A stretch of 22,211 nucleotides of DNA from a virus. Of the stretch, positions 9,136-22,211 are shown in pieces. Both the position numbers and the translations under genes were made by a program. The first letter of the stretch is position 1; each line of letters starts with the position of its first letter. The stretch lies in the IMG/VR virus record IMGVR_UViG_3300046048_000275, positions 1-22,211 of that record; one strand, written 5' to 3'. Below the pieces are notes generated by a model that did not search any database, was not told where the DNA came from, and saw only the letters and a program-made list of their open reading frames with translations.

Positions 9136-9472
9136 GGACTTCTCCCTCCACACGCTGGCCAGTACTGTGGGTTCGCTTGCAGTACTGGTTCCAGTCCTGT
9201 GGTTCATTGGAAAGCCTCTTATCGCCGATGCTTTGGCTGAGGAATTCAAGGAGACAGTTCAGCAGGAGCTTAGTCCATTAGAGGGCTCATTCAAAGTACT
9301 GCTGGATCGGGACATCAGCGCACTCCGAAAGGAAATTGCGCAGATGAGATTCCGACAGCGAGCAGGTGGAGACCAGTGGACTCGAGATGATGCTGAATAT
9401 CTAGCTGAACTGGAGATCGAACTCGAAGCCTTGAAGGAAGCTCGAGCTGAGCTACTGAAAGAGAATCACTGA
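9116..9472 (+). CDS. Membrane-anchored coiled-coil protein, inner-spanin-like candidate
   Basis: The protein has 118 residues. Residues about 14-33 (LASTVGSLAVLVPVLWFIGK) form one membrane segment with a short charged N tail. Residues about 40-118 are charged helix with heptad character (ELSPLEGSFKVLLDRDISAL, YLAELEIELEALKEARAEL). One N-terminal membrane anchor followed by a coiled coil is the topology of inner-membrane spanins, and also of some holin-associated or UviB-type proteins. It overlaps the preceding gene by 20 bases, has AGGAG 11 bases upstream of its ATG, and shares TGATG with the DUF5675-like gene. The lysis role is inferred from topology and neighbours, not from sequence family. 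Confidence 0.65.
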   Translation: MEQIRSKDFSLHTLASTVGSLAVLVPVLWFIGKPLIADALAEEFKETVQQELSPLEGSFKVLLDRDISALRKEIAQMRFRQRAGGDQWTRDDAEYLAELEIELEALKEARAELLKENH

Positions 9473-9927
9473 TGGAACTTACTCTACAACGGTTTTCGGG
9501 TGGCGAGGAAGCTACTCTCGGTTTGATCTTTGCCGATGGTACCTTCTTCTGTTACTCACTCGAAGATCAATTCAATGAGCCAAAGATTCCGGGAGAGACT
9601 CGGATCCCAGCTGGTCGCTATCAGATTAAGCTGCGGACTGAGGGTGGCATGACAAAACGGTATGCTGCTCGCTTTCCTGACATTCACCGAGGAATGCTTT
9701 GGCTTCAGAATGTACCGGATTTTACCTTCGTCTATCTGCATACTGGCAATACTGACGACCACTCCGAGGGTTGCATCCTAGTCGGAGATGGACAGGTACA
9801 GAATGTTACTGAGCGCGGTCAGGTGACTAGTTCGGTGGCAGCTTACAGGCGGCTATATGAGACTGTCGTTCCAAGGCTGTCTCGTGAAGAAGTCTGGATA
9901 ACCATCAAAGATGAGGACGTACTATGA
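9472..9927 (+). CDS. DUF5675-like protein, possible cell-wall enzyme
   Basis: The protein has 151 residues. RIPAGRYQIKL (44-54), HRGMLWLQNVPDFTFVYLH (72-90) and TGNTDDHSEGCILVG (91-105) match the pattern of the DUF5675 family, found in phages and prophages. His90, His97 and Cys101 are conserved-looking polar positions. The SEGCILVG segment resembles the S-x-GC active-site motif of L,D-transpeptidases, so a peptidoglycan-acting role is an attractive guess, though the family function is not settled as far as I know. There is no signal peptide, so export would need the neighbouring holin. No lysozyme, amidase or other classical endolysin is seen in the window, which makes this the best lysin candidate here. 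Confidence 0.78.
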   Translation: MELTLQRFSGGEEATLGLIFADGTFFCYSLEDQFNEPKIPGETRIPAGRYQIKLRTEGGMTKRYAARFPDIHRGMLWLQNVPDFTFVYLHTGNTDDHSEGCILVGDGQVQNVTERGQVTSSVAAYRRLYETVVPRLSREEVWITIKDEDVL

Positions 9928-11647: not shown

Positions 11648-13423
11648 ATGACATATACTGATGTCTTCGGAGGCGCTACGCTCTACCCCGCTGGGCAGAC
11701 GTATCTGTCTCTGACCTTCTCAACCGACCAGGTACTGTCTTGGCCGATTGAACAACAGATCGGTGGAAACATCGTGGCTAGCATCATTGACCTCAACCCA
11801 ACTGGTGCTGGACTCAATGTCGATATGCCCGATGCCCGTCAAGCTTCCAATGGTATTCAGGCAGTCTTCAACAATATCGGCGGAAATACGGTCACCGTCC
11901 GCGATGATACCGGTGGAACCATTCTTTCCTTGGCGTCAGGAGCCGCCTGGGTTCTCTATCTGAGCGATAACAGCACGCAAGCAGGCACGTGGCGTACCTT
12001 CCAGCTTGGCGCCTCTGTGGCAGTAGCGAATGCCTCAGCGCTTGCTGGAGCGGGATTGAAAGCTATCTCGACAACGTTGAATCAGCGCATCGCTCCGACT
12101 TCGACGGCCGTCACTCCTATTACCTGGACGGATTCTAATCGAGCCCAGATGACAATCTGGACGGGAGGTGTAGGTGTACTTAATTTTCCCTCTCCTGGCG
12201 CTGTTGGTTCTGATTGGTTTGCTATGGTCCGAAACAGTGGCTCAGGCGACCTCACCCTTACTCCGCCTTCTGGTACTATTGATGGTAGTGCTACACTCGC
12301 TATGGCTCCTGGCGAATCTTCTATCATAGTCACGGATGGAACGAATTTCTTCACGGTGGGTTATGGACAATCTAGCTCGTCAGTCTTTGACTTCATCGAA
12401 ATCAATGTCGCCGGCTCGGGTGACTACACGCTCTCCGGGGTCGAGTTGAACCGGATTTCCTATCGTTTCACTGGCATCTTGACCGGTAATAGGAACATCA
12501 TCGTACCTGGCTCTGTTCAACAGTACTGGGTCGACAACTCGACTTCCGGAGCTTTTTCTTTCTTCGTCAAGACAGCTCCTCAGGTTACTCCGATTCAGAT
12601 TCTTCAAGGTGATCGGAACATTCTGTACTGTGACGGAACGGATGTTGTAAGCGCCGAGTCAGCAACTGTTTCTTTCCCCATCGCTGTATCCCAAGGCGGT
12701 ACTGGTGCTAATACTGCTGCTAATGCTCGAGTCAATCTGGGTGTTCCTCCTGAGACTCGACTGATCAATACGGCAGCTCTCAGCGGTCTAGCTGGAGGTG
12801 GCGATCTAACGGGCGACAGGAGTCTGTCCATTGATGCTGATAACCTGACAGCTGAGACTACTATTGACTCGGCTGTTGATGTGGTTCCTTTCTACGATGA
12901 TTCGGCTGCGGCCATGCGTAAGGCTACCGTAGCCAACCTGGTACCGAAGAACAATGACTTCAAGAGGAAGAACACCGCAACGGTTCGAAGCTCAACCACA
13001 ACTGTCACGGATGATCCGGATTTGGCAGGATGGTCAATTCCCTCAGCTGGGAACTATATCATTCAGGGTATGCTGAAGGTAAGCGTGACGGATAACGTAG
13101 TTGGATTCCGTTGGCACTTCCAAACTACTTCGTTCGATACCAATCTAAGTCAGAGCCAGTTGATTACCTATGGCTACAACGGTTCGATTTTCACAGTAGT
13201 CGATCAAACGCCTGACGCTGATCAACAGCTGGGTATTGCAGCCTCTGGTAGCTACTGGTTCATCCTTCAGGGAATGATTCGATTCACTGGAGCCACGACT
13301 CTGGACTTCCAATGGGCTCAGTCAGTCAGCGGCGCAGCCTTTACGACATTGGAAGGTGGCTCTTGGATTAACCTCATCCGAGCTTCGGATGCTACTGCTA
13401 CAGCGAACACGTTCACGTCATGA
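11648..13423 (+). CDS. Second tail fibre-like protein
   Basis: The protein has 591 residues from ATG 11648, just after the adaptor stop, with GGGAG upstream. The frame is open further back, but that part lies inside the adaptor gene. The first 330 residues are beta-rich, with repeated glycine turns (NNIGGNTVTVRDDTGGT, GSGDLTLTPPSGTIDGS). Residues 347-366 hold SQGGTGANTAANARVNLG, a motif shared by many phage tail fibres. A second typical stretch, LAGGGDLTGDRSLSID, follows. The last 130 residues (WSIPSAGNYIIQGMLKVS, then LDFQWAQSVSGAAFTTLEGG) look like a TNF/C1q-like or similar receptor-binding tip. It is encoded between adaptor and nozzle, so it probably attaches there. The fibre call is firm; receptor binding is inferred. 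Confidence 0.8.
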   Translation: MTYTDVFGGATLYPAGQTYLSLTFSTDQVLSWPIEQQIGGNIVASIIDLNPTGAGLNVDMPDARQASNGIQAVFNNIGGNTVTVRDDTGGTILSLASGAAWVLYLSDNSTQAGTWRTFQLGASVAVANASALAGAGLKAISTTLNQRIAPTSTAVTPITWTDSNRAQMTIWTGGVGVLNFPSPGAVGSDWFAMVRNSGSGDLTLTPPSGTIDGSATLAMAPGESSIIVTDGTNFFTVGYGQSSSSVFDFIEINVAGSGDYTLSGVELNRISYRFTGILTGNRNIIVPGSVQQYWVDNSTSGAFSFFVKTAPQVTPIQILQGDRNILYCDGTDVVSAESATVSFPIAVSQGGTGANTAANARVNLGVPPETRLINTAALSGLAGGGDLTGDRSLSIDADNLTAETTIDSAVDVVPFYDDSAAAMRKATVANLVPKNNDFKRKNTATVRSSTTTVTDDPDLAGWSIPSAGNYIIQGMLKVSVTDNVVGFRWHFQTTSFDTNLSQSQLITYGYNGSIFTVVDQTPDADQQLGIAASGSYWFILQGMIRFTGATTLDFQWAQSVSGAAFTTLEGGSWINLIRASDATATANTFTS

Positions 13424-14922
13424 CGCAACCAACTCGAATCATATCTGCACCCGGCATCAAGCGAGATGGTACTAAGCTTGAGGGTGATTCCTACGTTGAC
13501 GGTCAGTGGTGTCGATTCCAACGCGGTCGGCCACGGAAGATGGGCGGATATCAGGCAGTCACAAATGCTGTCCCAGAAATCGTCCGAGGCATGGATGCCT
13601 ACTTCATTGACAACCTGAACTATCTACATTTAGGTGGGGCTACTCAGCTCAATCAGTTCGTTGTCAATACCAACGGCAATCTGGCCAGTACAGCTGATCG
13701 GACTCCGGCAGGATTCTCAACTGATCCCGACAACCTCTGGCAGTTCAGCGTATTCTTCGAGCAGGTAGGTGCGACCAATCATCTCATCGCTCATGCTGCG
13801 CCGAACCTCAGCGACATCGCTAGCAGCGTGGCTACTCCAATCTACTTTGGGCAGGTGGATGACACAGCTGTTCTGACGAGTACGGGCAAGAGCGTCAGTG
13901 GAGGAGCGATTGCTCTCGGTCCGTATCTGATGGCTTACGGCAGTGATGGATTGGTTAGCTACAGTACGATCAACGATCCGAATGGTACTTATACCGACGC
14001 CTGGATCACGCCACAGAAGATCGTGAAAGGACTTCCGCTTCGAGGTTCAGGTGCCGGTCCCGCTGGGCTGTTCTGGTCGCTCGATTCATTGATCCGAGGA
14101 CAGTTTGTAGGAGGAGCTACTGTTTGGGCTTTCGATACGCTAAGCGCTGAGACGTCTATTCTGTCATCTCAAGGAGTGATCGAGTATGACGGCATATTCT
14201 ACTGGCTTGGCATTGATCGGATGTTGATGTTCAACGGCGTCATTCGGGATATACCCAACTCCTTTAACCTCAATGACTTCTTCGACAATCTGAACTACAC
14301 TCATCGTCAGAAGGTATTTGCCTACAAGGTTCCTCGCTTCGGTGAGATCTGGTGGTGCTATCCGCGAGGCAACGCTACTGAATGTACGCATGCTATCATC
14401 TTCAACGTCAATGAAGGCGTCTGGTACGATACCGCGCTTCCTGATGAGGACAGGACTACTGGGGTATATGCTAAGGTATATAGGAAGCCCTTTATGGTAG
14501 ACCGTGTGGATACGGGGGTGGGTTATACGCTATGGCAACACGAAACGGGTACTGATAAGATACAACAGAGCGACGTTCAACCCATCCCCTCGTATTTCGA
14601 GACTGCGGAAATCTCGTTGCTGACACAGGAACAGGCGCAGAACAAAGCTCTGCATGTGGCACTGATTGAACCGGACTTTAAGCAATCAGGGAACATGACC
14701 GTTACTGTACGCGGGAGAATCAATTCCCGCGCTCCACAGACAGACGGTGAAACCTTCACCTTCTCTGATGTTGCTACGTCAGGTGACGAGGAGACAGTCA
14801 AGGTGAAGGAAACCAAGCGACTCATGAGTTTCAAATTTGCTTCCAACACAATTGGAGGCCATTACGAGATGGGTGAATGCTTAGCGCACGTTGCACCCGC
14901 GGACGGAAGGACGCAGACTTGA
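13420..14922 (+). CDS. Tail nozzle / packaged-DNA stabilisation protein (P22 gp10-like)
   Basis: The protein has 500 residues, starting in an ATGA overlap with the fibre-like gene. Residues 11-44 (APGIKRDGTKLEGDSYVDG, then WCRFQRGRPRKMGGY) are the hallmark of gp10-like and tail tubular B-like proteins that form the nozzle below the adaptor. The body has beta-propeller-like strands: VIEYDGIFYWLGIDRMLMFN, VFAYKVPRFGEIWWCYPRG, THAIIFNVNEGVWYD and YTLWQHETGTDK. The C-terminal 100 residues (TVTVRGRINSRAPQTDG, RLMSFKFASNTIGGHYEMG) are beta strands of the nozzle body. Length fits the family. It works with the SU10-like adaptor to close the portal channel and guide DNA exit. This is the clearest structural assignment in the second tail module. 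Confidence 0.85.
   Translation: MTQPTRIISAPGIKRDGTKLEGDSYVDGQWCRFQRGRPRKMGGYQAVTNAVPEIVRGMDAYFIDNLNYLHLGGATQLNQFVVNTNGNLASTADRTPAGFSTDPDNLWQFSVFFEQVGATNHLIAHAAPNLSDIASSVATPIYFGQVDDTAVLTSTGKSVSGGAIALGPYLMAYGSDGLVSYSTINDPNGTYTDAWITPQKIVKGLPLRGSGAGPAGLFWSLDSLIRGQFVGGATVWAFDTLSAETSILSSQGVIEYDGIFYWLGIDRMLMFNGVIRDIPNSFNLNDFFDNLNYTHRQKVFAYKVPRFGEIWWCYPRGNATECTHAIIFNVNEGVWYDTALPDEDRTTGVYAKVYRKPFMVDRVDTGVGYTLWQHETGTDKIQQSDVQPIPSYFETAEISLLTQEQAQNKALHVALIEPDFKQSGNMTVTVRGRINSRAPQTDGETFTFSDVATSGDEETVKVKETKRLMSFKFASNTIGGHYEMGECLAHVAPADGRTQT
14905..14910 (+). promoter_or_regulatory. Ribosome binding site supporting a TTG start
   Basis: GGAAGG lies 8 bases before the TTG at 14919. This spacing is good and supports TTG over the ATG at 14877, which lacks such a site, and over the ATG at 14940. 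Confidence 0.5.
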
Positions 14923-15155
14923 ACATTGATCCCCGAGGGATGACCTTTACCGACTGGTCGGACCGAGTGAACGGTCTATTGACCAATAGGTTGCCCTGGA
15001 GATTCGATGGAGACGAAAGCGGTTGGATGGACTGGGCTCATTACTTGAAAGACCATCCAGATTTTGAGGGCCAGAATATTCCCGAACCGGAGATCTTCGA
15101 TCACTGGGAAGAATGGGCCATGAGATTCAATCAGACAGTAGAACTGCCAGGGTGA
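14919..15155 (+). CDS. Small Trp- and Asp-rich protein, likely TTG start
   Basis: The protein has 78 residues if it starts at TTG 14919, which overlaps the nozzle stop as TTGA and follows GGAAGG at the right distance. Other possible starts are ATG 14877 (92 residues) and ATG 14940 (71 residues). The protein is acidic and rich in Trp (FTDWSDRVNGLLTNRLPWRF, SGWMDWAHYLKDHPDFEGQN, FDHWEEWAMRFNQ). It lacks a membrane segment. It shares TGATG with the next gene, so it sits between nozzle and internal virion proteins in one operon. I do not recognise a family. A small assembly factor or minor virion part is plausible, by position only. Confidence 0.6.
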   Translation: MNIDPRGMTFTDWSDRVNGLLTNRLPWRFDGDESGWMDWAHYLKDHPDFEGQNIPEPEIFDHWEEWAMRFNQTVELPG

Positions 15156-17077
15156 TGAGAATGGATTTTGATAAAGAGGCCAACAGCGTAATGAAAGATC
15201 TTCAAATGGTAGCTCAAGTTCCGGGTGGACTCGAGATGCTATTCACTCAGGCGGCCAATCAGGGGAGAAAACGTGGCGGCTCTGTCAAGAAGCTTCGATT
15301 GTACTGTGGTGGAGAGGCCAAGTATCAGGAAGGAGGCTTAGCTCAAGCCGAGGAAGTTCGGTCAATGGGCCGTGGAGACGATGAGGTTCTACTTCATGTC
15401 TCTCCCGAAGAATACGAAGCTATTGTGGCGATGTGGGGAGAACCCGACATCAACCCTAATACTGGCCTCCCGGAGTACGGCTTTCTATCGAAGGTCTGGA
15501 AGAAAGTCAAGAAGGCGGTCAAGAAAATCGTCAAGAGCCCTGTCTTCCAGTTCATCGCACCGATTGCACTCAACGCTTTTGTTCCTGGCCTCGGAGCAGC
15601 GATTGGATCGCAACTCGGTCTGTCTGGAGGTCTCGCTTCGACTGTCGGCAATGCTGTCGTCCGAGGAGGCATAGGAGCGGCAGGAGGAGGCAAAGAAGGT
15701 GCGCTCTCAGGTGTCGTTAATGCGCTGACCATGGGCGGCACAGGAGCCGATATAGGCTCTAAGCTAGGACTTTCGGGAGGTCTGGGCAAAGCTGCTGGCA
15801 ATGCGATCATCGGAGGAGTAGGAGGACAGATCGGCGGAGGCGGCTTTGCGCAGGGAGCTCTCGGCAACGTAGCTAATGCGATGATGATGGAGCCGTTGGA
15901 GAAGGGAACCGAGGGAATGCTCAAATCGACATTTACACCTGAGACTTCTGAACTGAGCAGTGCACTTCAGACTGGCGACATGAGTCCTATTCCCGGTGGT
16001 CCTCAGATGAGTCCAGTTCCGGGTGGTGCGCCGCAGATTAGCGATATGCTGAAGGGCAGCCAAGATCTTCCGTGGTATCAAGATGCCTGGAACTGGGCTA
16101 AGGACAATCCCCTTCTTGCTGCTGGTGCTGCGGGATTAGCTTACAGCGGTCTGTCAGGTGGGGGCGGAGATGAACCTCCTCCGAACTGGCAAGGGGGCGG
16201 GTCAGGTGAATTCTTCGAGCCTCTACCAACAAACTTTGACTACGGTCGGGAGTTCCAGGGTCTGAGTCCTGAAGCTTATTACACCTATGGTCAAGCAGGA
16301 GGAGAGCATACCTTCCTAACTAACAACCAAATCGGTCGACAGCTTCCCGGAACTCAGCCTCCGGCAGGTCAGCCAGGCATGCCACCTCCCCAAGGTCAAC
16401 CGGGCACGAATTGGGGAGCGAATCCGAATGATCCCCATGACATGGGCTACGGCTTCTATAATGAGTTCGGTGAATTCATGCCCTGGGATAATTCAGAAGG
16501 GGCTTTGCCCTATGCTCCTCCGGCTCAGCCAACTGCTCCTCCAACTATGGTTCAGCGTGACTTAACTCCGGATGAGGCCAATTTTCTCAGTCTCGATTTG
16601 TCTGGAGCTAGCAGTTCTCTAGGTAAAATGCTGCGGAATCTTCAGCAGCAAGCGGGTGCCGGATATTCTGAGGGAGGTTATGTCGGTTACCAAAGGGGCG
16701 GTCCTTTAGGTCACGCCAAAGGAATGGGCTCAGGTCGAGACGATACCATCGAGGCATTGCTATCAGATGGCGAGTTCGTCTTTGATGCTGAGACTGTTTC
16801 TCTGCTAGGTGATGGCAGCAATTCGGAAGGCGCTCGTCGCCTCGAGGAACTGCGTCAGAAACTGCGGAAGCACAAGGGTAAGAAACTGATGAAGGGAAAT
16901 TTCAGCGATGACGCTATGAACCCGGAAGATTACTTACCGAAGGGCCTCGGTCAGCTCTCTGACAAGGAAGTAAAGCAGATGCAGAAAATGAAGCCAAGTC
17001 CCAAAGACAGCAAGGCTCGAAAAAAGATGAGACAACGAATGTTTATTAAACGACTCCAACAGCAGATGGGAGATTGA
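15155..17077 (+). CDS. Glycine-rich internal virion (ejection) protein candidate
   Basis: The protein has 640 residues from ATG 15155 (TGATG overlap); ATG 15161 is also possible. Residues 56-61 are KYQEGG, followed by GRGDDEVLLHVSPEEY and INPNTGLPEYGF, a string seen in phage internal proteins. Residues 111-145 form a very basic amphipathic helix (KVWKKVKKAVKKIVKS) running into a hydrophobic stretch. Residues about 149-245 are two glycine-zipper repeats of period 50 (IGSQLGLSGGL and IGSKLGLSGGL). A Pro/Gly linker covers about 300-500. Near the C terminus GYQRGG (511-516) precedes GMGSGRDDTIEALLSDGEFV and a basic helix. Basic plus glycine-zipper segments fit a protein that inserts into membranes during DNA ejection. 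This is inference from features and neighbours; no enzyme motif is seen. Confidence 0.68.
   Translation: MRMDFDKEANSVMKDLQMVAQVPGGLEMLFTQAANQGRKRGGSVKKLRLYCGGEAKYQEGGLAQAEEVRSMGRGDDEVLLHVSPEEYEAIVAMWGEPDINPNTGLPEYGFLSKVWKKVKKAVKKIVKSPVFQFIAPIALNAFVPGLGAAIGSQLGLSGGLASTVGNAVVRGGIGAAGGGKEGALSGVVNALTMGGTGADIGSKLGLSGGLGKAAGNAIIGGVGGQIGGGGFAQGALGNVANAMMMEPLEKGTEGMLKSTFTPETSELSSALQTGDMSPIPGGPQMSPVPGGAPQISDMLKGSQDLPWYQDAWNWAKDNPLLAAGAAGLAYSGLSGGGGDEPPPNWQGGGSGEFFEPLPTNFDYGREFQGLSPEAYYTYGQAGGEHTFLTNNQIGRQLPGTQPPAGQPGMPPPQGQPGTNWGANPNDPHDMGYGFYNEFGEFMPWDNSEGALPYAPPAQPTAPPTMVQRDLTPDEANFLSLDLSGASSSLGKMLRNLQQQAGAGYSEGGYVGYQRGGPLGHAKGMGSGRDDTIEALLSDGEFVFDAETVSLLGDGSNSEGARRLEELRQKLRKHKGKKLMKGNFSDDAMNPEDYLPKGLGQLSDKEVKQMQKMKPSPKDSKARKKMRQRMFIKRLQQQMGD
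15602..15887 (+). repeat. Tandem glycine-zipper repeat within the ejection protein candidate
   Basis: Residues 150-169 (IGSQLGLSGGLASTVGNAVV) and 200-219 (IGSKLGLSGGLGKAAGNAII) are two copies 50 residues apart, each followed by a Gly-rich tail and GALxxVxNA. The codons differ a lot between copies, so the duplication is old and kept at the protein level. Confidence 0.75.
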
Positions 17078-17078
17078 C

Positions 17079-18074
17079 ATGGCCGGAGTATTAGACTTCT
17101 TATTCGAGGGTAGGCCGCCTTCGTCTGTCAATACTTACGGGCAGACGGTTAAGGATATTCCAAAGTGGCTGTCCGATTACACGCAAGGCCTCATCGGTCG
17201 AGCGAACATGATTGCCGCCGAGCCTTACATTCCTTACGAGGGTCCGAGGATCTCGGGCTTCTCGCCGGATCAGCTTCAGGCTTTCGATATGGCCCGAGGA
17301 AATGTTGGCTCCTGGTCTCCGCTGATGCAGGGAGCAGCTGAATCGGCTTATGCTGGTGGATCGGCTGACCCCTATGCTGCTGGGTCTCCATACATCCAGT
17401 CGGCTATGCAGGGATTCCCCGGAGCGGTTCAGGAGTACATGGACCCCTACATCGGAAACGTCCTGAATCGGCAACAGGAGCTGTCTCAACGGAACCTCGA
17501 AGAGAACATCATTCCAAGCATGCAATCAGCCTTCATAGGTTCGGGAACTTTTGGTGGAGACCGAATGGCTGATATCTCAGGCCGTATTGCTCGAGATACG
17601 GCTGAGGGTCTGCAGGGTCAGCAACTCGCGGCGCTATCCGGAGCTTATGGTCAAGCTGGCCAGCTGTTCGGTCAGGATATGCAGCGACGGGTTCAAGGCG
17701 GTCTGGGTCTCGGACAGCTGGAAGGAATGCGAGGAGAACTCGGTTTGAAAGGCTCTTCTCAACTGGGAGCCCTGGCCGAAGCATTACAGGGTATGCAATG
17801 GAGAGACGTTGCTGGACTGGAATCTGTTGGCCGTCAGCAGCAGGATCTGGGTCAGCGAAGCCTCGATCTCGCTTATCAGGACTTCCGGGAGCAGAGGGAC
17901 TATCCGCGTCGCACTATCGACTGGATGAACTCAGTCATTCGCGGCATTCCATACTCTCAGATGATTACCTCACAGCAGACAGGACCAGCAGATGTCTATG
18001 GTCCATCGCCACTCTCTCAAATCGCTTCGCTCTATTCAACGTGGCAAGGGCTGGGCGGAAAGCAAGGTGGATAA
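17079..18074 (+). CDS. Internal virion protein candidate, Gln/Gly-rich helical
   Basis: The protein has 331 residues. It opens with FLFEGRPPSSVNTYGQTVKD and PKWLSDYTQGLIGRANMIAA, then EPYIPYEGPRISGFSPDQLQ. Phages with large internal proteins often carry a protein with this opening in the same place. The middle and C-terminal parts are helical and rich in Gln, Gly and Ala (ENIIPSMQSAFIGSGTFGGD, ALSGAYGQAGQLFGQDMQRR), compatible with long extended helices. No transmembrane segment or catalytic motif is seen. It begins 1 base after the previous stop and ends 1 base before the 934-residue gene, so all are co-expressed. A role as an ejected core protein is inferred from context and composition. 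Confidence 0.7.
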   Translation: MAGVLDFLFEGRPPSSVNTYGQTVKDIPKWLSDYTQGLIGRANMIAAEPYIPYEGPRISGFSPDQLQAFDMARGNVGSWSPLMQGAAESAYAGGSADPYAAGSPYIQSAMQGFPGAVQEYMDPYIGNVLNRQQELSQRNLEENIIPSMQSAFIGSGTFGGDRMADISGRIARDTAEGLQGQQLAALSGAYGQAGQLFGQDMQRRVQGGLGLGQLEGMRGELGLKGSSQLGALAEALQGMQWRDVAGLESVGRQQQDLGQRSLDLAYQDFREQRDYPRRTIDWMNSVIRGIPYSQMITSQQTGPADVYGPSPLSQIASLYSTWQGLGGKQGG

Positions 18075-18075
18075 T

Positions 18076-18102
18076 ATGCGGCGGAAATTTCAAGAAGGCG
18101 GC
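18076..18102 (+). repeat. RRKFQEGG copy 1 (N terminus)
   Basis: The gene starts MRRKFQEGG. The codons differ from those of the internal copy at nearly every third position. Confidence 0.8.
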
Positions 18103-20880
18103 TTGGCTGCAGCTAACTCGATGGATTCCTCAATGGACCCCACCTCTGCTCTCATGGGCCTCTTCGGTCAGTTCAATACGACCACTCCCGAGGCTCAGAG
18201 GTATGCTCGAGATATTCTCGATGAATACGGAGAGCAGGACTGGTCGACTGAGCAAGAGATCATGGAGCGATTCCGCGAGACAGCGGAGGAGTCCCGTGCA
18301 GCTCTTAAGGCAGCTCGAGAACAGATTCTGTCTCAGGAGTTCGACAAGCGTCAGATGTGGCTAGCTGCTGCTCAGGGATTCGGTGCTCCTACTCAGACTG
18401 GCCAATTCGGTGAGACGCTCGGAAATGTAGCGGGTCTTCTTCGGCAGCCTATGGCTGAAGAAAGAGAGTTCGAGCAGGACAAACTCAACCGTCTCCTCGA
18501 ACTCGATCAGGCTATGTCGGGCGTTGATCAGAATCTGCTGATGAACGAGTTCCAGGTACAGAAGCTGCAGAGACAAACCGAAGGTCAGATGGCTCGAGAA
18601 GCACTGAAGATTCTCGGTCGTCCTCCAAGGACTGGCGCGGGTTCTCCAATGCGACCGATGGATGCTCCTGGGATCAAGTCGCTCGATCAGAAGATGGCTA
18701 CGGAGTATGCTGATTGGGTCACTGGAGGAGGTGCAGCAACTCAAGGTAAGATTGCTCTGCTTTCTGACATGGTCGGACAGCTCAAGAGTCGAGATGATCT
18801 TAGCGGTCCCTGGATTGGACTCATTCCGAAAGCGGGACGAGACTTCCTGTTACCCGAAAGCGCCAATGCTCAGGAAACAGTCGAGACTGTCGCTCAGGAA
18901 TCATTGAAGCAGATTCTCGGCGGTCAGTTCGGTCAGCGCGAAGGCGAGATGCTGTTGCAGAGAACCTTCAACCCAGCTCTTGAAGAATGGCAGAACGCCC
19001 GTCGAGCAGAAGCTCTGATGCTGAAGATTCAAAAGGCCTACGAAGAGAAACAGCGGGCAATGGAATACTTCAGTGACAATCAAACGATGTACGGCTATGA
19101 CGGCAAAATGCAATGGACGCTCGAAGACTTCATGCCTGAAGAGACCATGCGTAAGATCCGTATGCCGAATGGTGACATCATTGACGTACCGGCTAGCCTT
19201 ACGACTAAGAAGCAAGTTCAGCAGTACTACGACAGAATCCGGGAGCAACGAGGATACAGGCGGGGAGGTAAAGTAAGTAGCACCTTCAGACATCGTCGCA
19301 AGTTCCAGGAGGGCGGACCGGTCGAGAACTTCGAAGAGCTCGGAGAAGACTACGACCAGGAGTTCGGGGACATAGGCGGCTTTACACCGATGGATGCTCT
19401 TCGAATTGTCGGTGGAGCTAGCGCAGGGTTGCTTGGAGGAGTTGGTGCAGAAGAAGCGGGTACTCGACTCTACGAAATGAATCAGAATCTGAGTCGTCCG
19501 CCGCGAAGCGAGCAGCTCATTGGTATGGCGATGGAGGAAGGCAACGTACCGCCAACCGAAATGGTTACTGAAGTCAAGCGTGGCCAGCGCATGGGAGTTC
19601 CGGAAGTACCGTTAGACGTCTCAGGACGCACAGCACGGGAACTTGGCGAGCGAGCTATAATGGCATCAGGTCCAATCGGCGATGAGGCCTTGGACATGCT
19701 CGTAGAGCGTCAGGCAGAATCTCGTCAGCGAGTAGCGCGTCAGGTCGAGAAGGGCCTTCGTACTCCTGAGTTCTACACCACTGAAGATCGACTGACCGAT
19801 AAGCTGTATACTCAGGCTTCACCGCTGTATGAGAAGGCATTCAAAGAAACTGTCCCTGCTCCTCCGTGGTGGGGAGAGATGTTCGACTCCAAGTACGGCA
19901 AGAAAGCTATTCAGTTGGCTCTCTCGATGATGAAGGAGTCGGGTAAATCCATAGGTAAGGCTAACTTAGCGGGAATGGTAGAGCGACCGACTCTCGAGTT
20001 CCTGGACTGGGTCAAGAAGGGTTATGACCAGCAGATCTTCAGAGCTCAGGGTAACAACTGGCATCCTACCGCTACTACGCCCGAAAGCCGAATCATCAAA
20101 GAGCAGAAGAAGCGATTGGTCAGCTACCTGGATGAGAACGGTCCAGAGGAGTATAAGAAAGCACGGGCGCAATACAAAGGCGATGCCGAAGTCATCGAGG
20201 CGTTGAACCTGGGTCGAGACAGCTATTACCGCATGCCGGTTGAAGAAGCTCGCCGGACACTCGAGAATATGAGCTTCGCTGAGAAGCAGGCTCTTCGAAC
20301 TGGGTTTGCTCAGAAGATGTACGAGGTTATCTATGCGCCCAGCACTGACATCGCTGCCGCTCGCCGATTGATCGGTAGTCCTGAGATGCGAGGAAGACTC
20401 GAACTGCTCTTCGACAAGCCACGCGAGTTCCGCGTCTTCGATGCTGCATTGAAGCGCGAGATGGATATGTGGGAAAGGAATCGCGGAATGATCCGTCGGG
20501 CAGAGTCAGGTCGGACCAAGCGTCAGATCGCCAATGTCATGGAGATGGACGATCCGTTGGCAGCGGTCAAACAGCAGATTGGTCGCGGACCCACGATGTG
20601 GGTACTTCGTATGCTTCCGCCTTACGGCAGCAAGAGGACGTTGTCTGAGAAGGAAGCAGACGAGATTGTCCGTATTCTTACGCAAGGCGACGTTCAGGAG
20701 CTCGAGCAGATCCGACCGAGGCTCGACTATGCCACTGAGTACGCCAAGAAGCGAGGCAAGCGCCGTGGCAAGGCAGCTATCGCGGGTGCAGCGCTTGGAG
20801 CGGCTATAGCAGCGCTCAGCGGCGATGAGGAAGACGACGAAGATGTTGATCCCGAAGAGATGATCGAGGCACTTCAGTAA
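18076..20880 (+). CDS. Large internal virion protein, apparently two fused units
   Basis: The protein has 934 residues from ATG 18076, with AAGGTGG just upstream; the frame is open further back but only inside the previous gene. Unit 1 (1-405) starts MRRKFQEGG, is highly helical, and includes LGGQFGQREGEMLLQRTFNP (about 280-300), a segment typical of phage internal proteins. At 407-414 the sequence RRKFQEGG occurs again, and unit 2 (407-934) follows with a short Gly-rich hydrophobic stretch (IVGGASAGLLGGVGAEEAG), RQRVARQVEKGL, SPLYEKAF and DWVKKGYDQQIF. The end is KKRGKRRG, a hydrophobic Ala/Gly segment at about 898-915, and a very acidic tail. No protease or lysozyme motif is seen. It is likely packaged and injected with DNA. 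The two-unit structure is discussed in the findings. Confidence 0.7.
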   Translation: MRRKFQEGGLAAANSMDSSMDPTSALMGLFGQFNTTTPEAQRYARDILDEYGEQDWSTEQEIMERFRETAEESRAALKAAREQILSQEFDKRQMWLAAAQGFGAPTQTGQFGETLGNVAGLLRQPMAEEREFEQDKLNRLLELDQAMSGVDQNLLMNEFQVQKLQRQTEGQMAREALKILGRPPRTGAGSPMRPMDAPGIKSLDQKMATEYADWVTGGGAATQGKIALLSDMVGQLKSRDDLSGPWIGLIPKAGRDFLLPESANAQETVETVAQESLKQILGGQFGQREGEMLLQRTFNPALEEWQNARRAEALMLKIQKAYEEKQRAMEYFSDNQTMYGYDGKMQWTLEDFMPEETMRKIRMPNGDIIDVPASLTTKKQVQQYYDRIREQRGYRRGGKVSSTFRHRRKFQEGGPVENFEELGEDYDQEFGDIGGFTPMDALRIVGGASAGLLGGVGAEEAGTRLYEMNQNLSRPPRSEQLIGMAMEEGNVPPTEMVTEVKRGQRMGVPEVPLDVSGRTARELGERAIMASGPIGDEALDMLVERQAESRQRVARQVEKGLRTPEFYTTEDRLTDKLYTQASPLYEKAFKETVPAPPWWGEMFDSKYGKKAIQLALSMMKESGKSIGKANLAGMVERPTLEFLDWVKKGYDQQIFRAQGNNWHPTATTPESRIIKEQKKRLVSYLDENGPEEYKKARAQYKGDAEVIEALNLGRDSYYRMPVEEARRTLENMSFAEKQALRTGFAQKMYEVIYAPSTDIAAARRLIGSPEMRGRLELLFDKPREFRVFDAALKREMDMWERNRGMIRRAESGRTKRQIANVMEMDDPLAAVKQQIGRGPTMWVLRMLPPYGSKRTLSEKEADEIVRILTQGDVQELEQIRPRLDYATEYAKKRGKRRGKAAIAGAALGAAIAALSGDEEDDEDVDPEEMIEALQ
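19294..19317 (+). repeat. RRKFQEGG copy 2 (residues 407-414)
   Basis: The eight residues are identical to the N terminus but with mostly different synonymous codons. Just before it, GYRRGG (residues 393-398, bases 19252-19269) is a looser copy of the same motif. Confidence 0.8.
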
Positions 20881-22211
20881 TGGCCAAAGTCCGTCCATTC
20901 AATCGAGCAAAGCAATACGCTCATAGCGAAGCTCCAATACCGGGGTTCTTCTCAACGCTTGACGAGCTCGTAGCTACTTCTCCTCGTCCAGCTATGACGA
21001 AGACGGAATGGGAGCAGTGGTTGAAGCCAGGTCGCATGTTCAATCGCGAGGGAGTTCAATACGGCCTCAAGAAGAGCGAGCTCCAAGAGAATGACATGGA
21101 TACCGTTCTCTCCAACCTACAGAGATATGCCTTAGAAGAATCCGAAGGTGGAGATGAACTGATTCCTCGAGAGTGGATCTTCCGCGACTTGCAGAAGTGG
21201 CGTCCCAAGTTCACAGGTATGGTTCTAGATACCTACGAAGCGGGAACGATGTCAATGTCCGACCGCTTGGCGGAGATGGCCGATGCTCTGAAAGACCATC
21301 CTGAGCGGGGATCAATGGCTTTTAGTGATGACCCCGATATAATCACTGCCATTGGACGGTGGCAGCCGGTTGAAGATATGCTTCCGGGTAGAAGAACACA
21401 TACAGATCGGCTAGAGACGTATCAAACCAAAATCGCTGATCCGCAGTATGAAAGCTGGGGTTACCACCACAAGTCGGCTGACTCAAACGATAATGATGGC
21501 TACTTTGAATTAGTCACGCGATATGCTGGCCCAAAACCTATGGGCAAAGTACATCAACATTACGACAAGGATACTCTTTCCTGGTCTCGGGGAACTCGCC
21601 ATCTCAATACGACAGACGAGCAACCCTCAGTAGTTAGGCTAATCGAAGAAGTTCAATCCGATTATCATCAACAAGGTCGGAAACGCGGCTACGCTACTGA
21701 TGATATTGTCGACGAGGATGCCTATCTCGCTGATGAGATGAGTCAGATTGAAACGGAGCTCAAGGACGGGTACAGTATTGATCCGGATGATTTCTATCGC
21801 AATGCTGCTGGAAACTCGAGAATGGAGTACAGTGGCTATCCTCTTGAGGTTCAAGCGGCAATTGATGAACAATTCGAACTGTGGATGAACTACAGAGATC
21901 GAGCTCGAGAGATTTCAAAAACACTCGAAGAAATTCCCTTCAAGGATACAAAGGAATACTTCGAACATGAGCTGATGAAGAACGTCATTGCAGCCGTAGA
22001 TGAGGGCGAGAGCTACGTTGCAATTGTTCGGGGACAGGATCAAGTCGACCGGTACAACTTAGGCGGGAAGCGAGCTGAGGGAACCAAGAAAGCTTATGAC
22101 GAGCTTTATCCGTCAGTGATGAAAAAGATTGCCAACAAATACGGAGGCCAGTTTGATGAGGTGCAAATCGAAGTCGTAGAAATGGTTGAGCCGCGCCTCG
22201 AGTATCTGGAT
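20880..22211 (+). CDS. Polyvalent-type phage protein, N-terminal part (runs off the window)
   Basis: The frame opens at the ATG of a TAATG overlap and stays open for 444 codons to the window edge. Residues 22-31 (GFFSTLDELV), then TKTEWEQWLK, GVQYGLKKSEL and LIPREWIFRDLQ resemble the opening module of phage polyvalent proteins. Residues 256-271 read EEVQSDYHQQGRKRGY, close to the EIQSDWHQ-GRKxGY motif common in that group. Residues about 354-385 (FKDTKEYFEHELMKNVIAAV, then GESYVAIVRGQDQVDRYNLG) and YDELYPSVMKKIANKYGG follow the usual order. Such proteins are thought to be injected with DNA and to act on host defence or metabolism. The catalytic activity here is unknown; further domains may lie beyond the window. 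Confidence 0.72.
   Translation, partial: MAKVRPFNRAKQYAHSEAPIPGFFSTLDELVATSPRPAMTKTEWEQWLKPGRMFNREGVQYGLKKSELQENDMDTVLSNLQRYALEESEGGDELIPREWIFRDLQKWRPKFTGMVLDTYEAGTMSMSDRLAEMADALKDHPERGSMAFSDDPDIITAIGRWQPVEDMLPGRRTHTDRLETYQTKIADPQYESWGYHHKSADSNDNDGYFELVTRYAGPKPMGKVHQHYDKDTLSWSRGTRHLNTTDEQPSVVRLIEEVQSDYHQQGRKRGYATDDIVDEDAYLADEMSQIETELKDGYSIDPDDFYRNAAGNSRMEYSGYPLEVQAAIDEQFELWMNYRDRAREISKTLEEIPFKDTKEYFEHELMKNVIAAVDEGESYVAIVRGQDQVDRYNLGGKRAEGTKKAYDELYPSVMKKIANKYGGQFDEVQIEVVEMVEPRLEYLD

Follow-up and report, generated by a model that had tools for sequence, protein, structure and literature searches.

The 934-residue protein encoded on the plus strand at 18076-20880 of the window (the whole 22,211-nucleotide stretch of viral DNA analyzed here) is probably a mosaic ejection protein that arose by in-frame fusion, and the peptide RRKFQEGG that it contains twice probably represents two clade-specific copies of a short linear motif, most likely used in docking. 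At the level of sequence, homology and synteny show that the protein joins units that are separable in other phages. The motif stands at the N terminus and at seams between modules and is enriched at the level of the clade, a distribution for which a docking peptide is the most likely explanation.

The open reading frame, whose product begins MRRKFQEGGLAAA, carries RRKFQEGG at residues 2-9 (18079-18102, plus strand; CGG CGG AAA TTT CAA GAA GGC GGC) and again at residues 407-414 (19294-19317, plus strand; CGT CGC AAG TTC CAG GAG GGC GGA). The translation confirms what the first-pass annotation had reported, both for the positions of the two copies and for their synonymous codons, which differ at seven of eight places. 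The frame stays open upstream to 17992. A Shine-Dalgarno-like AAGGTGG (18064-18070, plus strand), 5 nt ahead of the ATG at 18076, and a homologue (L007) that begins directly with MAGYQEGG together favor initiation at that ATG. RRKFQEGG is the sole repeat of more than five residues in the protein. Because GG and QE are common pairs, a low-complexity peptide could in principle recur by accident, but the composition of the protein predicts only 0.00018 identical 8-mer pairs, none of 3000 shuffles held a repeated 8-mer, and the motif is conserved in four fused homologues. Chance is thus excluded, its remaining probability being negligible. A third, looser copy that had escaped the first-pass annotation, GYRRGG, is found at residues 393-398 (19252-19269, plus strand) just ahead of the second octapeptide, and the seam therefore carries a motif pair.

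When the whole 934-residue protein was used as the query, no close relatives were found in IMG/VR. Relatives were gathered instead via the conserved neighbor protein encoded at 13420-14922, which gave 80 environmental loci. In tblastn searches, Caulobacter phage GB2A has a free 435-residue protein that matches the first half of the protein, and Rhizobium phage RHph_I1_23 has a free 702-residue protein that matches the second. In cultured GB2A the two units correspond by synteny to gp063c and gp062c, the former also by homology, and in cultured RHph_I1_23 the second unit (C) is a gene of its own. Profile searches of the 80 loci gave the gene order EJ (an ejection protein), N (the first unit), C. 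At most loci where N and C could be recognized, each has its own open reading frame; more split cases were found among bacterial bins. Since relatives have a gene for each half, and the two genes adjoin, the 934-residue protein is a fusion of two units. The first-pass annotation had suggested such a joining and a search of relatives for separate half-genes; that search succeeded, GB2A and RHph_I1_23 included.

N and C share one reading frame in the window and in three further environmental phages, L005 (1141 residues), L007 (902 residues), and L107 (990 residues), the last of which came in via a DNA scan for RRKFQEGG alone. In all three the motif stands both N-terminally and at the seam, in keeping with the earlier view of the peptide as a conserved element. 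Across the four fused proteins the N-terminal QEGG never varies, while almost nothing else in the first 38 residues is conserved, and every seam has the motif or a GG pair. In a tree of EJ proteins, the fused phages group with L008 and L009, in which a free N unit sits beside a different partner; the deep branches of this tree are weak, and it leaves the number of fusion events undecided. We infer that fusion is likelier than splitting to be the derived state, since the split state is commoner and more widely spread.

The protein is organized as N1, N2, a short segment, a linker, and C, all on the plus strand. Module N1 (residues 1-180; 18076-18615) is helical and homologous to the free N proteins of relatives, and N2 covers residues 181-350 (18616-19125). 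A β-hairpin and helix segment follows (residues 351-392; 19126-19251), with strands predicted by AF2 at residues 358-362 and 368-372; the N-terminal ends of free C proteins are weakly similar to it. The motif pair lies in a predicted disordered linker (residues 393-446; 19252-19413). The all-helical core of unit C spans about residues 447-916 (19414-20823). It matches phrog_5880, a family of unknown function, with an E value of 4.7e-24 over residues 513-836 only, so that the N unit falls outside the family. The full-length AF2 model is helical but poor (mean pLDDT 53), with values below 50 at residues 1-37 and 393-521, where both octapeptides fall. Modeled alone, the C unit is almost all helical, with a core pLDDT of 80-92. 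No match to the C unit was found in the PDB by sequence or by fold, and fold matches in BFVD are uncharacterized phage proteins.

The place of the gene in the late operon suggests a role in the virion or in ejection, and the product is best described as a putative internal ejection protein of the podovirus type. The gene comes after genes for the tail-tube/virion structural proteins phrog_2941 and phrog_3287, a tape-measure-like protein, and EJ, a 331-residue phrog_4287 DNA ejection protein (17079-18074, plus strand) immediately upstream; relatives share this order. Like ejection proteins, the product is predicted by AF2 to be mainly α-helical, confidently for the C unit and with low confidence at full length. 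The location after the tail-tube genes and the run of helical proteins recall gp14, gp15, and gp16 of T7 and gp7, gp20, and gp16 of P22, and in GB2A the neighboring gene that occupies the C position encodes a lytic transglycosylase domain, like T7 gp16. However, the 934-residue protein differs from those of T7 and P22 in consisting of two fused units, in carrying the [FY]xxGG motif, and in showing no detectable match to the solved ones in sequence or fold. As no sequence or fold homology of the C unit to solved ejection proteins was detected, we do not assign the protein as a homologue of gp15 or gp16. It also lacks the C-terminal GG...LSDGEyV module of tape-measure proteins, which is present in the tape-measure-like protein encoded at 15113-17077 together with copies of the same GG motif.

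Borders between modules shift from phage to phage. In L011, EJ and N1 are joined in one protein, SYQEGG lying close to the seam (L011:12349-14664), a second kind of fusion within the same cassette. Module N2 belongs to the free N protein in GB2A and opens the protein that follows in L049. The N-C seam of L005 is longer by 173 residues (residues 429-601 of the listed open reading frame, L005:15132-18557), with motif copies on both sides, and no relatives of this stretch were found among the open reading frames of the compared loci; L007 and L107 carry other middle modules. These shifting borders fit the mosaic domain swapping described among podovirus ejection proteins (PMC8954989).

The first-pass annotation offered as one reading that the repeat is a relic of two genes whose products both began MRRKFQEGG. 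The existence of the units as separate genes elsewhere would agree with this, as would the start of one free N protein, that of L009, with MANYQAGGLAAA; GYRRGGKV ahead of the seam could likewise be an old C terminus, comparable to the RYMDGGRV that ends a tape-measure-like protein of GB2A. However, no free C protein among 14 has the motif at its start, which argues against shared starts, and only 1 of about 27 free N proteins does. The motif also recurs inside other proteins, at many places that are not boundaries. Residues 355-392, moreover, show a weak likeness to the opening 40 residues of free C proteins, MPRDVKVTLSNGEVLQYNGVPDDVTPDQI among them (HHalign probability 37%, P 3.5e-4), and the C protein may once have started there. 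This likeness, if real, moves the old boundary some 50 residues upstream of the second octapeptide; the fusion point would then lie near residue 353, and the second octapeptide would always have been internal to the C protein. On present evidence the first-pass annotation was wrong about what the peptide marks, and we regard an origin from two like-starting genes as improbable.

The other early reading was of a conserved signal, and in one form of it the peptide would be a processing site at which a prohead protease cuts between QE and GG, releasing two mature proteins. The N-terminal and seam positions would suit such a site, and its hydrophobic-x-Glu ahead of Gly resembles the T4 gp21 site. 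A Glu conserved ahead of the cut, as in protease-processed internal proteins, was not observed: Arg, Thr, Gly, Lys, or Ala replaces it in many motif copies, and YQTGG, YAGGG, GYRRGG, YQAGG, and FAKGG occur at equivalent or similar sites. Searches of six related contigs for prohead proteases of the S78, CLP, and S49 families found none, the search for the T4-type S77 family having run without a working control. The window contains no head genes, and the match of the major capsid protein (MCP) to a head-protease fusion family is confined to that family's capsid part. Given the variable Glu and the lack of hits to the three protease families in those six contigs, cleavage is the less likely course, and we give this reading very little weight. 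A perfect AGGAGG lies within the codons of the second copy (19307-19312), and internal translation initiation there was rejected, as no ATG, GTG, or TTG follows it at usable spacing. The further claim that one gene yields two functional proteins thus finds no support. T4-type internal proteins carry a short N-terminal capsid targeting sequence and are matched with a prohead protease. The present peptide is likewise short and N-terminal on internal proteins, but it is not confined to N termini, its Glu is not conserved, and none of the three protease families searched for was found.

RRKFQEGG is one form of a looser motif, [KRGQNVS][FY]xxGG, refined as [KRGQNVS][FY][AQKNMRSEDH][EKRGDQHSAN]GG. 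The refined pattern was set after the data had been seen, and the contrast between the tape-measure/ejection block and other genes also holds for plain [FY]xxGG. Relative to shuffles, that block contains 6 copies where 0.30 are expected in the window, 9 where 0.51 are expected in G002, and 9 where 0.29 are expected in G004, whereas all other genes together hold 0, 1, and 3 copies, respectively. For the close clade as a whole the block has 23 copies against 1.18 expected, and enrichment in this phage and its close relatives is about 20-fold. EJ of this phage lacks the motif. The tape-measure-like protein has KYQEGG (15320-15337, plus strand) and a tandem YSEGG...YQRGG with copies 8 residues apart (16664-16702, plus strand). 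In distant relatives the genes of this block are not enriched for the motif (8 copies, 7.24 expected), so it is not essential to the family, and enrichment as a family-wide trait was rejected.

Outside the clade, the pattern MxK[FY]QEGG, searched at the DNA level, matched 40 viral contigs; most matches lie at the start of a protein or at a Met within it, and the phage proteins concerned are diverse and unrelated. A second [FY]xxGG occurs in 14 of 24 clusters of such proteins (2.04 expected), often near the C terminus. Repetition is thus the usual habit of the motif and no special mark of the 934-residue protein. An unrelated family of 307 residues begins exactly MKRRKFQEGG (L103-L106, e.g. L105:10480-11403). 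There it adjoins a phrog_16759-like protein (PSSTPKQARTMRAAAHSP) that also bears the motif, and a neighbor of the same type follows the ejection block in L007. Small proteins in L108, L127, L118, L138, L143, and other loci combine an N-terminal MxK[FY]QEGG with an [FY]xxGG close to the C terminus, after which come tails such as GCAxRGKTRG or GAGCAKKGVRPCKM; those tested gave no significant PHROG family. A 118-residue protein outside the ejection block (L007:2245-2601; G004:26112-26468) contains FKTGG, FARGG, YKHGG, and YAHGG. For three other motif proteins no cultured relatives were found. It is possible, and we suggest it tentatively, that [KRGQNVS][FY]xxGG is a peptide code common to aquatic phages of unrelated kinds, by which internal and ejected proteins are sorted or docked into the virion and modules become interchangeable.

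The main rival to a docking role is that the motif is a plain linker, in which Gly-Gly turns and an aromatic anchor keep modules apart with no specific partner. Its occurrence in predicted disordered regions and at module seams would fit, and tandem copies, which occur 8-10 residues apart, could be small hairpins. However, the motif also stands at the very beginning of proteins, a place that calls for no linker, and the N-terminal QEGG is invariant amid varying surroundings. We consider a plain linker rather unlikely and favor docking.

The gene that follows, at 20880-22211, is cut by the end of the contig; it has a weak match to phrog_7348 (endolysin) and no relatives among the compared loci, and its RLIEEVQSDYHQQGRKRG stretch may resemble phage proteins of the polyvalent type. 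Among the small late genes, 9472-9927 encodes a DUF5675 protein (Pfam E value 6e-27) that is possibly part of a lysis cassette.

We propose that two units, encoded by separate neighboring genes in relatives, were fused in frame to give the gene at 18076-20880, and that RRKFQEGG is not the leftover start of the second. In this phage and those nearest to it, the motif stands N-terminally and within the disordered linkers that separate tape-measure and ejection modules, where it could give every exchangeable module a way to bind one common partner in the head or core. The motif would then be retained as modules fuse, split, or swap, because all of them would bind that partner through it.

Overall, the 934-residue protein is best seen as a variant of the mosaic ejection proteins already known. 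Of greater interest is the motif, which appears to be undescribed: we found no account of the peptide in the open-access literature searched. The mosaic nature of ejection proteins is known, but how their modules still fit together after a swap is not clear. A peptide that recurs at module ends and seams offers a testable answer to this question, and as a sequence tag it might help to pick out injected proteins among phage genes that lack annotation.
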